Source: a virus. From it: DNA of 23,532 nt. Location of the stretch: positions 1 to 23,532 of the IMG/VR virus record IMGVR_UViG_3300003631_000020, one strand, 5' to 3'. The position numbers and the translations under genes are program-made. This document shows, one piece after another, positions 7,631 through 21,278 of the stretch; position 1 is the first letter of the stretch; each line of letters starts with the position of its first letter. The notes beneath the pieces are model-generated. The model was not told the origin of the DNA. It was given only the letters and a program-made list of their open reading frames with translations, and did no database searches.

Positions 7631-9103
7631 ATGGCAACATATGGAAGCTTTCCCGGTGTACGTGTAACAACACAATCCGGCGGCATTAGCTCCATCGCTA
7701 TCGGTGAAGAGGAGAAGCTCGTCGTCTTCGGCGAGTCGGATTACGTTCTCGACACCTCTGGCTCCAGCGACGAGCTGGCAGTTGAAGGTGACGACACGTC
7801 TCTCACAATCTCGGCCTCCTCGCCAGAGCAGATTAATGCTCGGCGCGAGGCTGACGCGAAGTTCGGTACAGATTCCGAACTAGCCGATGGGATGAAGGAA
7901 GCCCTCGCTAACGGTGCGAACATCGACTTCCTCTACGGAGTGGCGGTTCCCCGCGACTTCGTTGAGGCTGAGACGCAGAGCGCACAGCAGGGCACTCTCG
8001 ACAACACATCTCTCGTTGAGAACACTGGTGATGCAGTTGACTCCACTGGTGATAACCTCAACGATATGGGTATCGAGGTATACGACGACAACTCTCCGAG
8101 CACGGAGCTGACCGTCGAGTTCCGATACAATGGAGCGCCGTCGATTCCGTCAGATGGAGATACTGTATACATCAACCCCCTCACGGGCGAGTATGCAGCA
8201 GACGCAACTGCTGATGGAGCAAACTACGAGTTCTCCTACACGTACAACGACTACGGTACAGCATTTGGCGCACAGGACGTGAAGAACGTCGTCAACGAAA
8301 ACGAGACTGGAGTATACGTCGCATTGACGGACTCCGATAGTGTCTCCTCCTCGCTCCAGAGTGAGGTCAGCACGCTTCGAGATAACTTCCAACTCGTTAA
8401 CGCAATCAGCGTCGCCGAGCCGAACGACAGTGAAGTTCTCGATGCGGCGAACGTCACTGACACGAACGGTGGCGCGGACGCTCGCTACGATACGGCGAAC
8501 TACGGTACTGCTAACCAGAGCGTTAGCGCGGAGTACTATTACAAGTTCGCTCCCGGCCGCGAGGCTGACGAAGTGAAGACGATTGCGGGAGGGTTCGGTG
8601 GTCTGTTCGCAGGCAACCCAATCTCTGACCCAATCTATAACGACGAACTCTCTGGCTATCAGAGTCTAGAGCAGAAGTTCTCGAAGACGGACGCCGACAA
8701 TATGCGAGCAGAGGATATTATCCCTGTCCGCACTGGCGGCTCTGTTCGAGTGCAGGGCAATCGAGCTACTAACTTCAGTACGAGTGGCACGGTTGCGGCA
8801 GACTTCTGGACTCGTCGTATCACCGACCGCGTAATCCTCATCGGGAAGCAGGTTGGTGACGAAATCATTGGCCGAATCAATGATGAAGATACTCGTGCGC
8901 AGGCGGAGCGGCTCATCAACGCAGAGATGCAGCAGCTCGTCTCCGACCGCCTCATCAGAGCTAACACGGACTCTGAGACGAATTGGACGGTTGACGTGTA
9001 CGAGGATTCGACGAACGACGATGAGGTCAATATCGACATTAGCTTCACGCCGTACGGTATCGTGAAGCAAGTTGATGAGACGATTACGGTTAACACGAAC
9101 TAA
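7631..9103 (+). CDS. Contractile tail sheath protein
   Basis: A 490-residue sheath protein that polymerises around the tail tube and contracts during infection; its presence defines the virus as a myovirus. The N-terminus (YGSFPGVRVTTQSGG...IAIG) is the typical sheath opening, in which the first strand augments the neighbouring subunit. The C-terminal domain (about 365-490) has the conserved order of an 'RTGGSVRVQGNRATNF' strand, the helix DFWTRRITDRVILIGKQVGDEIIGR, and the helix RAQAERLINAEMQQLVSDRLI. The terminal strands NIDISFTPYGIVKQVDETITV close it. The middle (about 150-240) is a more variable beta insertion. The last residues TVNTN are identical to those of the following tube protein. 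Confidence 0.92.
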   Translation: MATYGSFPGVRVTTQSGGISSIAIGEEEKLVVFGESDYVLDTSGSSDELAVEGDDTSLTISASSPEQINARREADAKFGTDSELADGMKEALANGANIDFLYGVAVPRDFVEAETQSAQQGTLDNTSLVENTGDAVDSTGDNLNDMGIEVYDDNSPSTELTVEFRYNGAPSIPSDGDTVYINPLTGEYAADATADGANYEFSYTYNDYGTAFGAQDVKNVVNENETGVYVALTDSDSVSSSLQSEVSTLRDNFQLVNAISVAEPNDSEVLDAANVTDTNGGADARYDTANYGTANQSVSAEYYYKFAPGREADEVKTIAGGFGGLFAGNPISDPIYNDELSGYQSLEQKFSKTDADNMRAEDIIPVRTGGSVRVQGNRATNFSTSGTVAADFWTRRITDRVILIGKQVGDEIIGRINDEDTRAQAERLINAEMQQLVSDRLIRANTDSETNWTVDVYEDSTNDDEVNIDISFTPYGIVKQVDETITVNTN

Positions 9104-9115: not shown

Positions 9116-9553
9116 ATGGTAGACTACAACGAAGGCGGCTCTAACAAGCGCCGTAAGGAAGTCGGTGAGAACTGCACTCTCTTCCTCCCTGAAGGAACGA
9201 GCGTTGCTGTAAGTAACGTTTCTTTCAGCGAGGAGGCTAACACGAGTGAAGTTCAGTACACTGACTCGTTCGCACAGAGCATCGCCGTCACAGGCGTCAC
9301 GTACTCTGGCTCGTTCACGATTCCCGGTAACGCGAATATTGAGCGAGACCAAGGCTGGAATCAGGGTAATGGTGAAGCTGCCACGACCCTGCCGAAGCAC
9401 ATTAGTACGATGTCTATTGACGATGGTGAGGGGCGTTCGTATTCGTTCAGTAACGTCCTCCTCAACAGCCACTCGAAGGATATTCCGTCCGACGACCGGA
9501 CTGAGCAGTCCTTCGACTTTATGGCTGAGAAGATGACTGTTAACACGAACTAG
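9116..9553 (+). CDS. Tail tube protein
   Basis: A 145-residue inner tube protein immediately after the sheath gene, the near-universal order in contractile systems. The protein is all-beta with one short helix region, as in gpFII/gp19-like tube proteins. It contains NCTLFLPEGTSVAVSNVSF, a SEVQYTDSF ... VTGVTYSGSFTIPG strand pair and the C-terminal TEQSFDFMAEKMTVNTN. Length is typical. The start is fixed by the AGGTGA ribosome binding site. The shared TVNTN terminus with the sheath is encoded by a 14-nt direct repeat (GTTAACACGAACTA at 9089-9102 and 9539-9552). The stop is TAG, followed by a 110-nt structured gap. Confidence 0.88.
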   Translation: MVDYNEGGSNKRRKEVGENCTLFLPEGTSVAVSNVSFSEEANTSEVQYTDSFAQSIAVTGVTYSGSFTIPGNANIERDQGWNQGNGEAATTLPKHISTMSIDDGEGRSYSFSNVLLNSHSKDIPSDDRTEQSFDFMAEKMTVNTN

Positions 9554-9562
9554 AACAACACA

Positions 9563-9570
9563 TTTAAGTA
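9563..9570 (+). promoter_or_regulatory. TATA-like promoter box upstream of tail chaperone
   Basis: TTTAAGTA is a close match to the haloarchaeal TATA consensus and resembles the TTTAAGTAG at 21347-21355. Transcription would begin near 9590, giving a leader of about 70 nt that holds the inverted repeat at 9596-9660. Function is inferred. Confidence 0.5.
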
Positions 9571-9660
9571 GGGGTGTTTGGCTGACACTCCATACAACTC
9601 AATCCTCCTGCCTTGCCCGAGGCGACACACCACTCTTATTTGGGAGGAGAGAGTTGAGTT
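9571..9660 (+). promoter_or_regulatory. Structured leader with sequestered Shine-Dalgarno
   Basis: Three hairpins can be drawn by eye. First, GGGGTGT (9571-9577) pairs with ACACTCC (9585-9591) with one G-T pair and a 7-nt loop. Second, AACTCAATCCTCC (9596-9608) pairs with GGAGGA (9643-9648) plus TTGAGTT (9654-9660), leaving a 5-nt bulge. Third, inside that, GCCT (9610-9613) pairs with AGGC (9620-9623). The long stem buries GGAGG, the only strong Shine-Dalgarno sequence near the chaperone gene. It could act as translational control or as an RNA processing site between the abundant sheath/tube messages and the scarcer chaperone/tape measure. Confidence 0.45.
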
Positions 9661-9663
9661 AGC

Positions 9664-10149
9664 GTGCCAGTGAAATCCACCGATTATGGAGAAAACTACA
9701 TAACAATGCAAGAAGAAGAAGCACTAGACTTTTATCAGCGTATCACGGAAGGGAAGAAGCGGCATCAAACTATCTCGCTCGAACACAGTAGCGGCTCTAC
9801 GTTGAGCGGTGTTCGTATGCGTCCTGTCGATAAGAAGACACTCGCTGGCGTGATTGAGCGTCTGCCTGACGAGATGTTCGAAGCTGTTGACGAAGCAGCT
9901 GACGCGGACGAGGCAGAGGAGCAGCTTGAAGAACAAGGCGGCTCGCTCAATGCAGTTACGGGTGAGACTGTCGATGCGTTCGAGGACTTGTGTAAGGACG
10001 CGCTCGACCACCCAGAGTTGACGAAGCCGCAGATGGACCACATTGTCTCAGAACTTAATTTCGAAGTATTGTTCGAGCTTGGGACTGAAATCATCAATAT
10101 GTCGTCCGAGGAGACTGGGGCGATTCGCGGTTTTCAGAAACAGGGATAG
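9664..10149 (+). CDS. Tail assembly chaperone, short (gpG-like) form
   Basis: A 161-residue acidic, largely helical protein between tube and tape measure, the position of lambda gpG/P2 gpE-type chaperones that coat the tape measure before tube polymerisation. Visible segments include LSGVRMRPVDKKTLAGVIERLPDEMFEAV, an Asp/Glu/Ala-rich linker (about 77-95) and a C-terminal helical part (ALDHPELTKPQMDHIVSELNFEVLFELGTEI). The start is uncertain: GTG 9664 is 15 nt after the GGAGGA, while ATG 9706 (15th codon, MQEEEALDFY) is an attractive alternative with only a weak GGAG upstream. The gene ends in TAG inside a stem-loop, and a -1 reading frame continues the protein (next entry). Confidence 0.75.
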   Translation: MPVKSTDYGENYITMQEEEALDFYQRITEGKKRHQTISLEHSSGSTLSGVRMRPVDKKTLAGVIERLPDEMFEAVDEAADADEAEEQLEEQGGSLNAVTGETVDAFEDLCKDALDHPELTKPQMDHIVSELNFEVLFELGTEIINMSSEETGAIRGFQKQG

Positions 10150-10346
10150 GACAGTATCTCCTATCCGCAGTTGAGAACGGCGGTACTAACTTTTCTGTCA
10201 GGGACGAGCAGACTGGAGAAATCCGGCAGGCGTACGCTGACGAGTTAACCGACGCTCAACTGAAGTTCCTGTATCACGCGAGGCAGGAGCGAGAGCGGAT
10301 GAAACAGCGTAAGTCTAAACAACAGCAACCAAACACTAGCATCTAA
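10134..10346 (+). CDS. Tail assembly chaperone -1 frameshift extension (gpT-like)
   Basis: The -1 frame relative to the chaperone is open from 10089 to the TAA at 10344-10346. It encodes a convincing C-terminal domain containing GIGQYLLSAVENGG, FSVRDEQTGEIRQAYADEL and DAQLKFLYHARQERERM, with a basic, Gln-rich tail. It has no ATG or GTG before the ATG at 10309, near its end, so independent initiation is unlikely. A slip at the TTTT run (10131-10134, codons GGT TTT CAG), or at GGA-TAG (10144-10149), would give a fusion of about 227 residues. A perfect stem-loop at 10144-10166 lies just downstream. Tail chaperone frameshifting is a conserved property of long-tailed phages. The exact slip site is not certain, because no canonical X-XXY-YYZ heptamer is in frame. 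Confidence 0.75.
   Translation, partial: SETGIGQYLLSAVENGGTNFSVRDEQTGEIRQAYADELTDAQLKFLYHARQERERMKQRKSKQQQPNTSI
10144..10166 (+). promoter_or_regulatory. Stem-loop at chaperone frameshift region
   Basis: GGATAGGA (10144-10151) and TCCTATCC (10159-10166) are perfect reverse complements, forming an 8-bp stem with a 7-nt loop (CAGTATC). The zero-frame TAG stop lies in the 5' arm. The stem begins 9 nt after the TTTT run that allows perfect re-pairing of a Phe tRNA in the -1 frame, close to the spacing of known frameshift-stimulating structures. Confidence 0.6.
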
Positions 10347-10359
10347 ATCCACCTAATAT

Positions 10360-13300
10360 ATGCCAGACTTTAATCAGAACGTTAAAATCAACGTCGACCT
10401 CAACGCGAAAACTGAGGGCGCACTTGCTGAGATTGGCTCGGCACTTACTGCAATCAAGAGTAGTGCCAACTCTCTCGGCGACGACCTCGACCAGATTGAG
10501 AAGGATATTGAAGATTTCGGTGAGTCGTTCGGGAAAGATGACGATATCCAGATTGGCGGTGAGGTCGATAGTGATTCTATCTTCCGAGCGGTTCGTAATG
10601 CTCGGCAGCAAGCACATACTGAGATTAAGAGTCTGCCGCAGCCGACTGTCCGAATTGCAACTCGGATGGATAGTCGGCGGGGGACGTTCGTCGACGAAAT
10701 CTTGGATGAGATACAGATGCTTGAGGATGCGACTGAGGCAGCTGACCCGCTCGCTGAAGCGAAGGAGAACGTCGCTGACTCGAATAGTCTGCTAGCTGAC
10801 TCTGCTGATAATTCTGTCACTGAGCTTGACCGAGAGGCTGATTCGTTCGATAAGATTATCGATAGTGGTGATAGCCTCACTGACGTGAAGCAGAAGGTTG
10901 CTGATGCGAACAAGCACGTGCAGAGTATGAGTAAGGAGTCGGCTGATGAGCTTGCCGGTGAAGATAAGCGGATGCGTGACTTGTTCGACAGCGCGGGTAT
11001 TGTCGAAGAGTCGATAGATGAAGCTGGCGATACGATGGGAGCGACGAGCAGGCAGTTGCGTAAGATGCGTAATTCGACTGATAAAGCTACTGAGTCGATG
11101 CGCGCTGCGGCCCAAGTTGGAGACTTATTCGAGGACGGGTTAGGTTCACTCTCCGTTAATCTTGGTGCGTTCACTGTTGCGCTCCGTAACTTCCTCACGC
11201 AAGTGCCGCTATTGCTCACTGCTCTTGGTGCTGCTGGTGCTGCTGCGATGGGTGCTGCTTCTGGCTTTGTTGCGCTTGCTGGTGCGATGGGTGCTGTTGT
11301 TGCAGCTGGAGCTATCGCTCACGCACAACAATTGAAGAGCGAGTATAGTGAGATTGAGAACCTCGGGGAGAGTATGCAAGTTATTATGGCTAACTTGCGC
11401 GACCTCTTCATGGAGGCCATCCAGCCATTGACGAGTAGTGGTGAGAGCTTGCAGATTTTCGTGCAGGCTGCAACCGGCCTTGCGCGAGCAGTTAACGTTA
11501 TCTCGAAGTCTATTGCTCGTCTCGTTGAAGGCACTGACGAGTTCAATGAGAGCGTTGCTGCTGGCGCTGAGCCTATCTTCACTGTGCAGGATGCGATGAC
11601 TCAGTGGTCTGAAGATGTGATGCCGGCTTTCCTCGACCTCGTTGGCTCTATCGGGTTTGCGTTCGAGGAGCTTGGTTCTGAGATTATTTCGGCAACTGCT
11701 CGCGCGACGAGCGGGCTTGCTGATATGATTGATTTCTCGGTTCGCCTCTTCGGTGAGATTGAGAACGTTGGCTCGCTGATTAGCCAGTTCGGTGATACGA
11801 TGGCGGAGCTTGCGACGCTCGGTGTTCGAGTAGGTGGCGGCCTCCTCCCAGTATTCAAAGCGTTCTCGTCTGTTATGGAGGGTGTGGCTAATGCTCTCAA
11901 TCAGATTGACAGTCAGACGATGCAGAACGCTGTGACGTTCCTCGTTCTGATGGCTGCTATTAATCGACTTGCTGGTGTTGCAAGTAGCTTGCTCACTATC
12001 TTCCCAAATCTCGTCGTTGGTATGGCGAACGTTTCGTCGTCGGCGAAGGCGGCATCTGGCTCTATTGCGACGATGCGTGCGGCGACTGCGGCTGCTGGAA
12101 CGCAGCTCGGTGGCTTCCTCGCGCAAACGAATATGCTTGGTGGGATGACTGCGTTCGCTGCTGCACTTACTGGAACTGGTGAGCGGATGCGTAATGTTGC
12201 GTTCAATACGGTTGCTGCGAGCGAGGCGTTCGAGGAGATGGCTGAAGATACGGACCACGCTTCGGACGAACTTCGAGAGCTTGCTATTCAAGGAAAGCTT
12301 ACTGAAGAAGTGATGGAGGACTTGGGCGACAACGACGATATAGACTTCGACGTGAGTGACGGTAAGCTCGACGCAGAGCAATTCTTGCCCGATGACTCCC
12401 TCACTGCCGCGATGTTCGGCGGAGCGGATGACGCTGCCGAAGAGGCGGCTGAAGAGTCGGCTGAGGCTATGGGACGCCTCGACCCGAGAGGTGGTACGTT
12501 CAGAGTTGTGCCTGACGACATCGATGCTGGCCCACTCGATAAAGTGAAAGGAAAACTTCGAGGTCTCGGGCAGAGTTTCCGCAATGCTGGTGCGGCTGCG
12601 CTTGATGCAGTGAAACAATTCGGCTTATTCCTTGGTCGTCTTGTGATGATTCAATTGCAGGCTATCAAGACCGCCATCGTGATGAGTGGTCGTCTCGCTG
12701 CGTCGATGGCTCGCGTTGCGATTGCGTCAGCGAAGGCCGCAGCTTCAATACTGAAGCAAACGGTTATGGTCTATCAATACACTGGCTCCCTCACAGCAGC
12801 AGCTAGTACGATGTGGGGTCTCGTCACTGCGCAGATTGCTAGTGCTGCTGCCTCAGCGAGAAATGCTGCAATGAAGGAAGCTGGAGCTGCTGCGAACTTC
12901 TTACTTAGTGACTCTGCTCTCTTGGCGACTGGCTCGATGTATGCGCTCGATACGTCGATTGCTGTTGCGACTGGTGGTATCTCGGTTCTCGTTGGGTTGA
13001 TTGGCGCGCTCGCTGTCGGTATCATTACGAACTTCAGCGAGATTAAGGCTGCTGCGTCTGATTCGTTCGGCTTCCTCAAGGACGTGATTGATATAATCGT
13101 CGACGTATTAATCACGTACTTCATCGAGACGTGGAATCTCATCGTCGACTTATTCAATGCTGTCGTGCAAGGATTGTCTCCGTTGATTGATATGTTCGCC
13201 GACCTCGGCAAAGCGCTCGGTGTCGTCGGCGGTGAGTCGCAGGATAGTGCGAGCTTTATGGAGATGCTGGCTGCTGCTGGAGATATAGTTAAGACTTCAC

Positions 13301-13911
13301 TCAAAGTTCTTGCTGACTTCCTCGGTGTAATTATCGACGTGCTTGGTGGAGTGCTTGCTGTGGCAACGTCACTAATTAGAGTTGCATTGACGCCACTCTT
13401 AGTAGTCGTGCAGCTAATCATCGCAGCGCTCGGCCTATTGAGCGACTGGTGGGATTTCATCCTTGAAGATATTCTTGGCGTGCAGGGTGGAGTTAGCGGA
13501 CTCATCGATATATTTATGGACTTGTTCGATGCGTTTATGGCGGGGATGGCAGCTATTCCTGCGATGGTCGAGAAGGCAGTCAATGGTGTCATTGGGTTGA
13601 TTAATGGGTTCTTTAGTGCCATTAATAATACTGTCCCCGGCGTCGACCTCGGCCAGATTGAAGATGTGAGCTTCACTGGCGAGCAGAGTATGAAGACTGA
13701 CAGAGAAGAGCTTGCCGCAGATAGTAAGAATATGCGTGACAATACTGCTGAGAAGAGTGATAAGACTATCACGTATAACGAAGATAATAGTACGAATATC
13801 GACCAGACGGTTAACGCTGACCCCGAAGACCAAGCACAGCTCTCTCGTGTCGTCACTGACGCGATTGCTGAAGCGAACTCGTTCGAGCGGCGGCGTCAAG
13901 GAGGACAATAA
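10360..13911 (+). CDS. Tail tape measure protein
   Basis: A 1183-residue tape measure, which fixes tail length and probably enters or spans the host membrane during DNA injection. The N-terminal 270 residues are acidic coiled coil (ALAEIGSALTAIKSS ... RKMRNSTDKATESMRAAAQ). Hydrophobic segments lie at about 280-322 (Ala/Gly-rich), 521-557, 866-892, 904-938 and 981-1035. The C-terminal 100 residues are polar and Asn-rich. No lysozyme or peptidase motif was seen. At the commonly used 1.5 angstrom per residue it would predict a tail of roughly 175 nm. The ATG (AATATATG) has no Shine-Dalgarno sequence and starts 13 nt after the frameshifted chaperone stop. The gene is the largest in the window, as expected. 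Confidence 0.92.
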   Translation: MPDFNQNVKINVDLNAKTEGALAEIGSALTAIKSSANSLGDDLDQIEKDIEDFGESFGKDDDIQIGGEVDSDSIFRAVRNARQQAHTEIKSLPQPTVRIATRMDSRRGTFVDEILDEIQMLEDATEAADPLAEAKENVADSNSLLADSADNSVTELDREADSFDKIIDSGDSLTDVKQKVADANKHVQSMSKESADELAGEDKRMRDLFDSAGIVEESIDEAGDTMGATSRQLRKMRNSTDKATESMRAAAQVGDLFEDGLGSLSVNLGAFTVALRNFLTQVPLLLTALGAAGAAAMGAASGFVALAGAMGAVVAAGAIAHAQQLKSEYSEIENLGESMQVIMANLRDLFMEAIQPLTSSGESLQIFVQAATGLARAVNVISKSIARLVEGTDEFNESVAAGAEPIFTVQDAMTQWSEDVMPAFLDLVGSIGFAFEELGSEIISATARATSGLADMIDFSVRLFGEIENVGSLISQFGDTMAELATLGVRVGGGLLPVFKAFSSVMEGVANALNQIDSQTMQNAVTFLVLMAAINRLAGVASSLLTIFPNLVVGMANVSSSAKAASGSIATMRAATAAAGTQLGGFLAQTNMLGGMTAFAAALTGTGERMRNVAFNTVAASEAFEEMAEDTDHASDELRELAIQGKLTEEVMEDLGDNDDIDFDVSDGKLDAEQFLPDDSLTAAMFGGADDAAEEAAEESAEAMGRLDPRGGTFRVVPDDIDAGPLDKVKGKLRGLGQSFRNAGAAALDAVKQFGLFLGRLVMIQLQAIKTAIVMSGRLAASMARVAIASAKAAASILKQTVMVYQYTGSLTAAASTMWGLVTAQIASAAASARNAAMKEAGAAANFLLSDSALLATGSMYALDTSIAVATGGISVLVGLIGALAVGIITNFSEIKAAASDSFGFLKDVIDIIVDVLITYFIETWNLIVDLFNAVVQGLSPLIDMFADLGKALGVVGGESQDSASFMEMLAAAGDIVKTSLKVLADFLGVIIDVLGGVLAVATSLIRVALTPLLVVVQLIIAALGLLSDWWDFILEDILGVQGGVSGLIDIFMDLFDAFMAGMAAIPAMVEKAVNGVIGLINGFFSAINNTVPGVDLGQIEDVSFTGEQSMKTDREELAADSKNMRDNTAEKSDKTITYNEDNSTNIDQTVNADPEDQAQLSRVVTDAIAEANSFERRRQGGQ

Positions 13912-19863: not shown

Positions 19864-21278
19864 TGCCTGAACTAGATAACAGACCACAGCTCCCCGAGAT
19901 AATCCCCGACGACGTTGTTACTGTCAGGGGAGAGATTCACACGTATGAGACCTTCGAGAGCGATAGTGGTACGATAGAAGTAAAATCCTACACGCTGAAT
20001 AAGGCTCCGATTATCGAGATTGAGTCAATTCAAGGAGTTGACCAGAACGGTGAATCTAGAACGTTCAGTAATGGTGTGGACTACGAGCTTGACAGTACTA
20101 TTAAAAATAGCGACGATACGTTCACGTACGTTACGACAGAAAGCGATTACGAGCTGACGCGAGAACCTGACATTCCATCAATCTCAGTCGAAGACGAGTC
20201 GGGTGATGCGTACACGAAAGATTTCGATTGGGAGATAGTAAACACTGACGGTGCTGCTGCCGACACGCTGCGCTGGCTCGATACTGGCAGCAGTCCTAAC
20301 GACGGTGAGAACTTCACTGTCTCGTACGAGTCGACGTTCGAGAACTCTGCTGTCGTCTGGCAGGATGATGGCAACAATTTGCCTGAGCCGGGTTCGGAGT
20401 TCTACGTGACGTATCGAGCTGAGTCCATTGTCAGCCGGTATCTCGATGAATCCGAAGCAAAGCTAGATAGCTTGGAGGATGAGATATTGAACGTTATCGA
20501 GTCGAAGTTCATCGATACGGCGAGTGGCGACGAGCTAGGTGAACTCGGGAAACTATTCGGCCCACTTATTGGCAAACGACGTGGGCGCAACGACACCGAG
20601 TATCGTATCTATCTCCGTAGTGTCGTTCGCTCGTTCGTCTCACGTGGGACTGTCGATGGTATCAAGCTCGCTATCTCTGCTGCGACTGACGTTCCAGTTG
20701 AAGATATCGATATCATCGAGAACTTCGAGAAGAACGAGTATAACGTTGCTGTCGTGCCGAACACTCCAGTGACTGGCTCGCTTATTGAGGATGTTGCTGA
20801 AGTCGCTGACCCGAGCGGTGTGAATCAGCTACTCACTCGGTTCGAACTAGAGGATGAAGAAATCTTCGTAACGGAAGAGATAGTCTTACAGAAGGATACG
20901 GATGGACTCGGCCCACAGGAGAAGCGATACGCTGATACGACTGACACGACAGCAATCGATGAAACTATCGCGCTTCCTGCTGGCCGAACACTCGACTACG
21001 CACTCTCCGACGATGCGTTAGCGATTAACGATAATAAGTTCGATGCTGGCACTGACACTACTAGTGGTGATGACGACGTATTCATCAACCCGAACAAGTT
21101 CGATGCTGGCACTGACACTACTAGTGGTGATGACGACGTATTCATCAACCCGAACAAGTTCGACGCTGGCACTGATGCGGCGAGTGGTGATGATGCTGTA
21201 GATAATATCGAGCAGCGCTTTGTCGAGTGGGATACGACGAACTGGGACGAGATGTATTGGGCGGTTGAACACAACTAG
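19863..21278 (+). CDS. Tail protein I (gpI)-like baseplate protein
   Basis: A 471-residue protein after gpJ, the usual order. Residues 1-190 contain beta repeats of the same type as in the gpJ homologue (for example SISVEDESGDAYTKDFDWEI ... LRWLDTGSSPNDGENFTVSYES). Residues about 190-330 are the gpI/DUF2612-like core: YLDESEAKLDSLEDEILNVI, GDELGELGKLFGPLIGKRRG, then EYRIYLRSVVRSFVSRGTVDGIKLAISAATDVP. This region binds the gpJ arms and presents the tail fibres. Near the C-terminus lies a tandem array of 20-residue units (NKFDAGTDTTSGDDDVFINP) encoded at 21033-21212. The end is Trp-rich (VEWDTTNWDEMYWAVEHN). Confidence 0.78.
   Translation: MPELDNRPQLPEIIPDDVVTVRGEIHTYETFESDSGTIEVKSYTLNKAPIIEIESIQGVDQNGESRTFSNGVDYELDSTIKNSDDTFTYVTTESDYELTREPDIPSISVEDESGDAYTKDFDWEIVNTDGAAADTLRWLDTGSSPNDGENFTVSYESTFENSAVVWQDDGNNLPEPGSEFYVTYRAESIVSRYLDESEAKLDSLEDEILNVIESKFIDTASGDELGELGKLFGPLIGKRRGRNDTEYRIYLRSVVRSFVSRGTVDGIKLAISAATDVPVEDIDIIENFEKNEYNVAVVPNTPVTGSLIEDVAEVADPSGVNQLLTRFELEDEEIFVTEEIVLQKDTDGLGPQEKRYADTTDTTAIDETIALPAGRTLDYALSDDALAINDNKFDAGTDTTSGDDDVFINPNKFDAGTDTTSGDDDVFINPNKFDAGTDAASGDDAVDNIEQRFVEWDTTNWDEMYWAVEHN
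21033..21212 (+). repeat. 60-bp in-frame tandem repeat in gpI-like gene
   Basis: Two 60-nt units (21033-21092 and 21093-21152) differ at one base only (AAT/AAC at the first codon). A third, diverged unit follows (21153-21212, NKFDAGTDAASGDDAVDNIE). A weaker ancestral copy precedes them (AGRTLDYALSDDALAIND). The near-identity of two units at DNA level indicates a recent duplication by slippage or unequal recombination. The units are Asp-rich and probably form a linker or stacked turns near the fibre attachment site. Confidence 0.9.

Follow-up and report, generated by a model that had tools for sequence, protein, structure and literature searches.

An invariant U_UUU motif points to −1 frameshifting in the tail assembly chaperone gene of HGTV-1-like archaeal myoviruses

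The window – viral fragment IMGVR_UViG_3300003631_000020 of IMG/VR, 23,532 bases long and analysed over its whole length – is assigned to an HGTV-1-like (Halomagnusviridae) myovirus of halophilic archaea, the family rank being placed from the fragment only, and carries a putative −1 frameshift in a predicted tail assembly chaperone gene. Two overlapping open reading frames (ORFs) on the plus strand make up the locus. ORF1 (positions 9706 to 10149) is the zero frame, ends with TAG, and encodes a predicted gpG-like tail assembly chaperone of 147 amino acids (aa), recognized by 51% identity to HGTV-1 gp19, by gene position, and by a structure-model match. Homologues begin at ATG 9706, which is therefore preferred as its start over the mechanically assigned GTG 9664; the frame is open upstream from ATG 9706 to GTG 9664, and the extra N-terminus (9664-9705) has no counterpart in HGTV-1. 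ORF2 occupies the −1 frame, which stays open from 10089 (preceded by TAA 10086-10088) to TAA 10344-10346 and contains no ATG, GTG or TTG before ATG 10299. The part of it that would enter a fusion, a candidate gpT-like domain at 10131 to 10346 (plus strand), matches HGTV-1 (39%), has no early start, and is marked by −1-frame conservation from the codon after a TTT. An initial annotation of this DNA had placed both the TAG (10147-10149) and the −1 frame where we find them, together with a TTTT run at 10131-10134 in GGT TTT CAG, and had noted the lack of a start codon until near the end of ORF2.

Homologues were gathered from viral contigs by scanning with a protein query as well as ORF1 and ORF2 profiles, which yielded 22 junctions including those of the window and HGTV-1, 21 of them non-redundant (<95% identity over ORF1). 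One ORF2 peptide pattern contains FS and favours TTTT, and statistics were therefore repeated on an unbiased set of 15 non-redundant sequences, comprising those found by N-terminal peptide patterns only together with the window and HGTV-1. A DNA-pattern scan for the junction returned 22 chaperone loci, known or new, and the remaining matches lacked two long open frames. No proviral relatives were found among 84,980 bacterial and archaeal genomes, and a plasmid search found none on plasmids.

Every homologue junction has the form NNT TTT C[AG]N NNN NNN NNN TAG with ORF2 in the −1 frame (22 junctions; 21 non-redundant), and HGTV-1 gp19/gp20 are laid out as in the window. The putative shift site of the window is GGT_TTT_CAG (10129 to 10137, plus strand), with U_UUU at 10131-10134 and the P-site codon TTT at 10132-10134, and the zero-frame TAG (10147 to 10149, plus strand) follows five codons after TTT, as it does in 21/21 non-redundant homologues. 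The initial annotation had proposed that the tail chaperone gene of this archaeal virus is frameshifted by −1 at TTTT, and the invariance of TTTTC and of the TAG spacing in all homologues supports this. It had named an ORF2 in the same frame, or with a start of its own, as the observation that would speak against it, and we find ORF2 in −1 at all junctions with downstream starts that are not conserved. The absence of an own start and conservation in the shifted frame among relatives are as expected for a G/GT-type gene.

The position of the switch can be narrowed considerably. Across the 15 sequences, conservation follows frame 0 as far as the Phe codon; immediately after it, frame −1 becomes the conserved one (S, [ER], T, x, [ILV], [GA], Q), a pattern absent from the other frames. 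In HGTV-1 and two other relatives (L026 and L033) the −1 frame is interrupted by a stop codon two codons before TTT, and the shift must therefore occur at or after the codon preceding TTT and ahead of TAG. Within this stretch TTT is the sole codon whose tRNA re-pairs one base back in every homologue. Re-pairing as UCA/UCG is not possible at the A-site codon (CAG, CAA, CAC or CGA), and the slip is therefore apparently of one tRNA and not of the heptamer type; in keeping with the initial annotation, no in-frame X_XXY_YYZ heptamer is present in the window overlap (GGT TTT CAG AAA CAG GGA TAG) or in any homologue. UUU_C is in frame in all homologues, as in the UUU_C class of +1 shift sites, but in nearly all of them the +1 frame runs into a stop within about 13 codons, and it is the −1 frame that holds ORF2. 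These sequence comparisons establish that the dual-frame arrangement is conserved, where exactly the switch lies, and that U_UUU is invariant.

The third base is invariant in just 2 of the 122 testable ORF1 codon columns of the 21 sequences, and these are the Phe codon and the codon before it. The pre-Phe codon is GGT in 8, GAT in 11, GCT in 1, and AGT in 1 – thus encoding four amino acids – and the Phe codon is TTT in 21/21, with the other four conserved Phe columns of ORF1 being mostly TTC. Given how these genes use codons, a T at all pre-Phe third bases would arise by chance with a probability of ~1e-8 in the 21 sequences (1.4e-6 in the unbiased 15), and TTT as the codon for this Phe throughout with one of 2.8e-8 (8.9e-7 in the unbiased 15). 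Kinship among the sequences makes these figures approximate, yet all other testable third positions have diverged, and in one respect they are conservative because T-runs are otherwise avoided in the late genes of the window and HGTV-1. The stop codon is similarly constrained. The −1 residue before G (I, L or V) is always encoded by NTA, which creates the TAG, even though just 5% of Ile codons and 11% of Leu codons are NTA. NTA precedes G in 21/21 non-redundant homologues (chance ~3e-16 under codon usage in the 15-sequence set), indicating that the zero-frame TAG is under selection.

With regard to T-runs in general, the late genes of the window and HGTV-1 (L001) avoid TTTT whichever of the three codon registers it would occupy; TT|TT, for example, is observed 2 times in the window with 16 expected. 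This depletion looks like general T-run avoidance, perhaps because T-runs can end archaeal transcription. Avoidance of in-frame T_TTT (4 observed and 10.6 expected in the window; 2 and 14.8 in HGTV-1) was considered as a sign of shiftiness, and was dropped because all three registers avoid TTTT.

We conclude that the gene very probably encodes the tail assembly chaperone of an HGTV-1-like archaeal myovirus, is of the G/GT type, and uses a one-tRNA −1 slip at U_UUU. Most ribosomes would terminate at TAG 10147 and release the short chaperone. In a minority, peptidyl-tRNA-Phe on UUU 10132-10134, with the A site unfilled, would move back one base to UUU 10131-10133, where it could re-pair perfectly; UCA (Ser) would then be read, giving a fusion of about 213 aa (...AIRGF|SETGIGQYLL...). 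In this model we infer both the one-tRNA P-site mechanism and the minority ratio of the fusion. By analogy with phage lambda, the short form may coat the tape measure protein and the scarcer fusion may recruit tube subunits (PMC5009743).

Several points weigh against this conclusion. The frameshift, including both of its products, is read from comparative sequence, in which a ribosomal slip and the addition of one U by RNA polymerase look alike, though four Ts is very short. The structure model of ORF1 is of low confidence (predicted local distance difference test, pLDDT, 64), and its best match in the Protein Data Bank (PDB), the HK97 tail assembly chaperone 2ob9 (prob 0.98, E 0.029), is suggestive only. 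Neither ORF1 nor ORF2 matches a Pfam or PHROG family, and no strong family-wide stimulator was found among the 21 relatives. Weaker viral matches of the ORF1 model include several annotated tail assembly chaperones, and the ORF2 model has a pLDDT of 67 and a predicted template modelling score (pTM) of 0.39.

An RNA polymerase that slipped at the T-run and added one U would yield an identical fusion protein from UUUU. However, selection for such slippage would favour lengthening of the run, which never exceeds four in any homologue, and we regard this origin of the fusion as very unlikely; transcriptional slippage normally uses runs far longer than four. ORF2 could instead be made as a separate protein by re-initiation or leaky initiation near TAG, and GenBank lists HGTV-1 gp19/gp20 as two separate hypothetical proteins, with gp20 as an ORF of its own with a TTG start. 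The absence of ATG, GTG or TTG in the window until 10299, the lack of conserved downstream starts among homologues, and −1 conservation that reaches back to TTT, upstream of any start, make a separate protein highly improbable. The initial annotation had also offered a slip at the stop codon, in which P-site tRNA-Gly moves from GGA to GGG with TAG in the A site. The position of TAG is strictly conserved and CAG GGA TAG in the window permits the re-pairing, but the last codon varies among homologues (GGA, GGT, GAT, GAC, GGC, GAA, CAA, CAG or AGT), most of those other than GGA cannot re-pair in −1, and −1 residues are conserved already four codons upstream (FS[ER]T). The GGA to GGG slip is refuted as the family mechanism by this lack of conservation, and a shift at the stop codon is extremely improbable.

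Returning to the U_UUU slip, a downstream hairpin is a possible stimulator. Folding predicts an 8-bp perfect stem-loop (GGATAGGA/TCCTATCC) at 10144 to 10166 (plus strand; arms 10144-10151 and 10159-10166) with a 7-nt loop. As the initial annotation described, it begins 9 nt after TTTT and contains the zero-frame stop; it is 6 nt past the A-site codon. The 51-nt fold of the window is modestly better than controls (z −1.97 vs shuffles; p 0.037 vs synonymous codons), and the 60-nt fold is weaker than the 40-nt fold. The hairpin could be an essential stimulator, comparable to the 3′ structures that follow −1 sites in bacteria and eukaryotes, which would add to the one-tRNA slip rather than replace it, and its perfect stem and placement, its retention in L014 with one compensatory pair change, and clade-specific downstream structures in L019 and L051 all favour such a role. 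It is nonetheless doubtful, as the stem is broken in the close relative L013, downstream structure is better than synonymous-codon controls (p<0.05) in 5/21 relatives and not significant in 16/21, and the pooled signal (Stouffer −3.2) is within the control-window range (−4.5 to 0.2). On the same grounds the hairpin was rejected as a family-wide element; only clade-limited hairpins, and no conserved 3′ structure, are found across the 21 relatives. It may be stimulatory in the clade of the window, but is not a common element. The alignment of homologues that the initial annotation had suggested thus upholds TTTTC, which is kept in all, and not the stem.

The closest parallel is in the Hafunaviridae (HSTV-2, HF1/HF2, HRTV-25; PMC7230728, PMC5009743), which resemble the window in gene order, in having homologous ORF1 and fusion proteins, and in apparently shifting at a TTT Phe codon followed by C. 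Profile comparison of the fusion proteins of HGTV-1-like viruses and Hafunaviridae gives an hhalign E of 8.5e-6 and a score of 44 (reversed, 17.5; 30 column shuffles, <=19.6), and ORF1 alone gives E 5.8e-5. Homology between the two families rests mainly on ORF1 and the fusion, because the ORF2-only comparison is weak (score 17.3 vs shuffles <=14.3). The Phe codons of both groups fall in one column of the profile alignment, and the junction peptide is F-A-[ED]-[TS]-G in most Hafunaviridae and F-S-[ER]-T-G in HGTV-1-like viruses. The direction differs, however: all 11 Hafunaviridae junctions analysed have TTT_CGN with ORF2 in +1 and never a T before TTT, whereas NNT_TTT_C leads into an ORF2 in −1 in the HGTV-1-like viruses. 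The Hafunaviridae vary in the zero-frame stop and in its spacing, both of which are fixed in the HGTV-1-like viruses.

A probable +1 shift at TTT-CGC has been described for the HF1 group, where no conventional slippery sequence was found (PMC7230728). In some Hafunaviridae GenBank records (L129, L133-L138) the chaperone fusions are annotated as '-2 frameshift'. The '-2' is more simply read as +1, as TTT_CGN would fit a slip of tRNA-Phe onto TTC, with better re-pairing. We think it rather likely that both of these Thumleimavirales families slip at one and the same Phe codon of the chaperone gene, but in opposite directions: HGTV-1-like viruses backward (U_UUU, −1) and Hafunaviridae forward (UUU_C, +1). 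The two states would be set apart by the T before the codon and by a length difference of two bases immediately behind it. Three relatives of the window (L016, L017, and L031) have TTTT_CGA, which carries both the −1 site of the HGTV-1-like viruses and the +1 TTT_CGN motif of the Hafunaviridae, with ORF2 in −1. A further family is represented by HATV-2 (Soleiviridae), which has A_AAA_AAC in frame just before the ORF1 stop. Direct blastp of the window chaperone against HATV-2 is not significant; the sheath proteins are related across the HGTV-1-like, Hafunaviridae, and HATV-2 families. Three families of one order thus appear to use three different shift sites.

HATV-2 and the haloviruses with classical −1 chaperone shifts (HCTV-1/2/5, HVTV-1, Hardycor1; PMC5009743, PMC7911831) resemble the window in having a −1 shift, putative in the window, in the chaperone gene that precedes the one for the tape measure. 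The published sites of HCTV-1/2/5 (PMC5009743) and Hardycor1 (PMC7911831) are classical −1 heptamers, and the window differs from the A_AAA_AAC of HATV-2 in that only one tRNA can re-pair. The lambda G/GT system shares the short chaperone, the −1 fusion, and the genomic position, with no sequence similarity found. Lambda slips at the heptamer G_GGA_AAG. Influenza PA-X (UCC_UUU_CGU, of the UUU_C +1 class; PMC3498833) likewise has a single P-site tRNA-Phe on UUU followed by C, but shifts in the opposite direction and relies on a downstream UUC rather than on an upstream U. A gene family whose members shift in different directions, as proposed here, has precedents in Rab-GDI displacement factor genes of ascomycetes (−1 at U_UUU_UCC, and +1 in some species) and in Trichomonas vaginalis viruses (−2 or −1) (PMC5009743). 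Those systems are eukaryotic, whereas the present one concerns tail genes of archaeal viruses whose Phe codons align in register.

There is good support for regarding the junction as a variant of G/GT tail-chaperone frameshifting that is conserved but not annotated. No description of the site was found in the literature covered, which does not include Sencilo 2013 (haloarchaeal tailed virus genomes; HGTV-1). In a 2021 review, the sole reported demonstrated archaeal −1 frameshift is that in fucA of Saccharolobus solfataricus, with the virus cases resting on sequence (PMC8211752). The site is compact and invariant in 21 non-redundant viruses including the cultured HGTV-1, one base change should abolish the shift, and single-tRNA −1 slippage on archaeal ribosomes would become directly testable with it. 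Together with the Hafunaviridae junctions, it provides a natural example of a shift that changes direction while its P-site codon is kept. The annotations of HGTV-1 gp19/gp20 and the '-2' labels in Hafunaviridae would need correction.

The surrounding late genes are in the order of a contractile-tailed archaeal virus – sheath, tube, the two overlapping ORFs, tape measure, and then baseplate genes – with the ORF pair between tail tube and tape measure genes as in the G/GT layout. All are on the plus strand: the tail sheath gene, denoting a contractile tail, at 7631 to 9103 (PHROG tail sheath, 5e-81), the tail tube gene at 9116 to 9553 (PHROG tail tube match), and the tape measure protein gene at 10360 to 13911 (PHROG tape measure matches). 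Halogranum tailed virus HGTV-1 is the nearest named relative, with identical gene order and 47% identity in the sheath. The intergenic gap between the tube and chaperone genes (9554-9705) is unusually long and contains a 14-nt inverted repeat (CAACTCAATCCTCC/GGAGGAGAGAGTTG, 86%; predicted fold z −1.7), and the corresponding gap of HGTV-1 is similar at 165 nt and structured (fold z −3.1). Further downstream, at 21036-21193, a tandem 60-bp repeat of 2.6 copies gives a probable baseplate or tail protein a recurring NKFDAGTDTTSGDDDVFINP motif close to its end.
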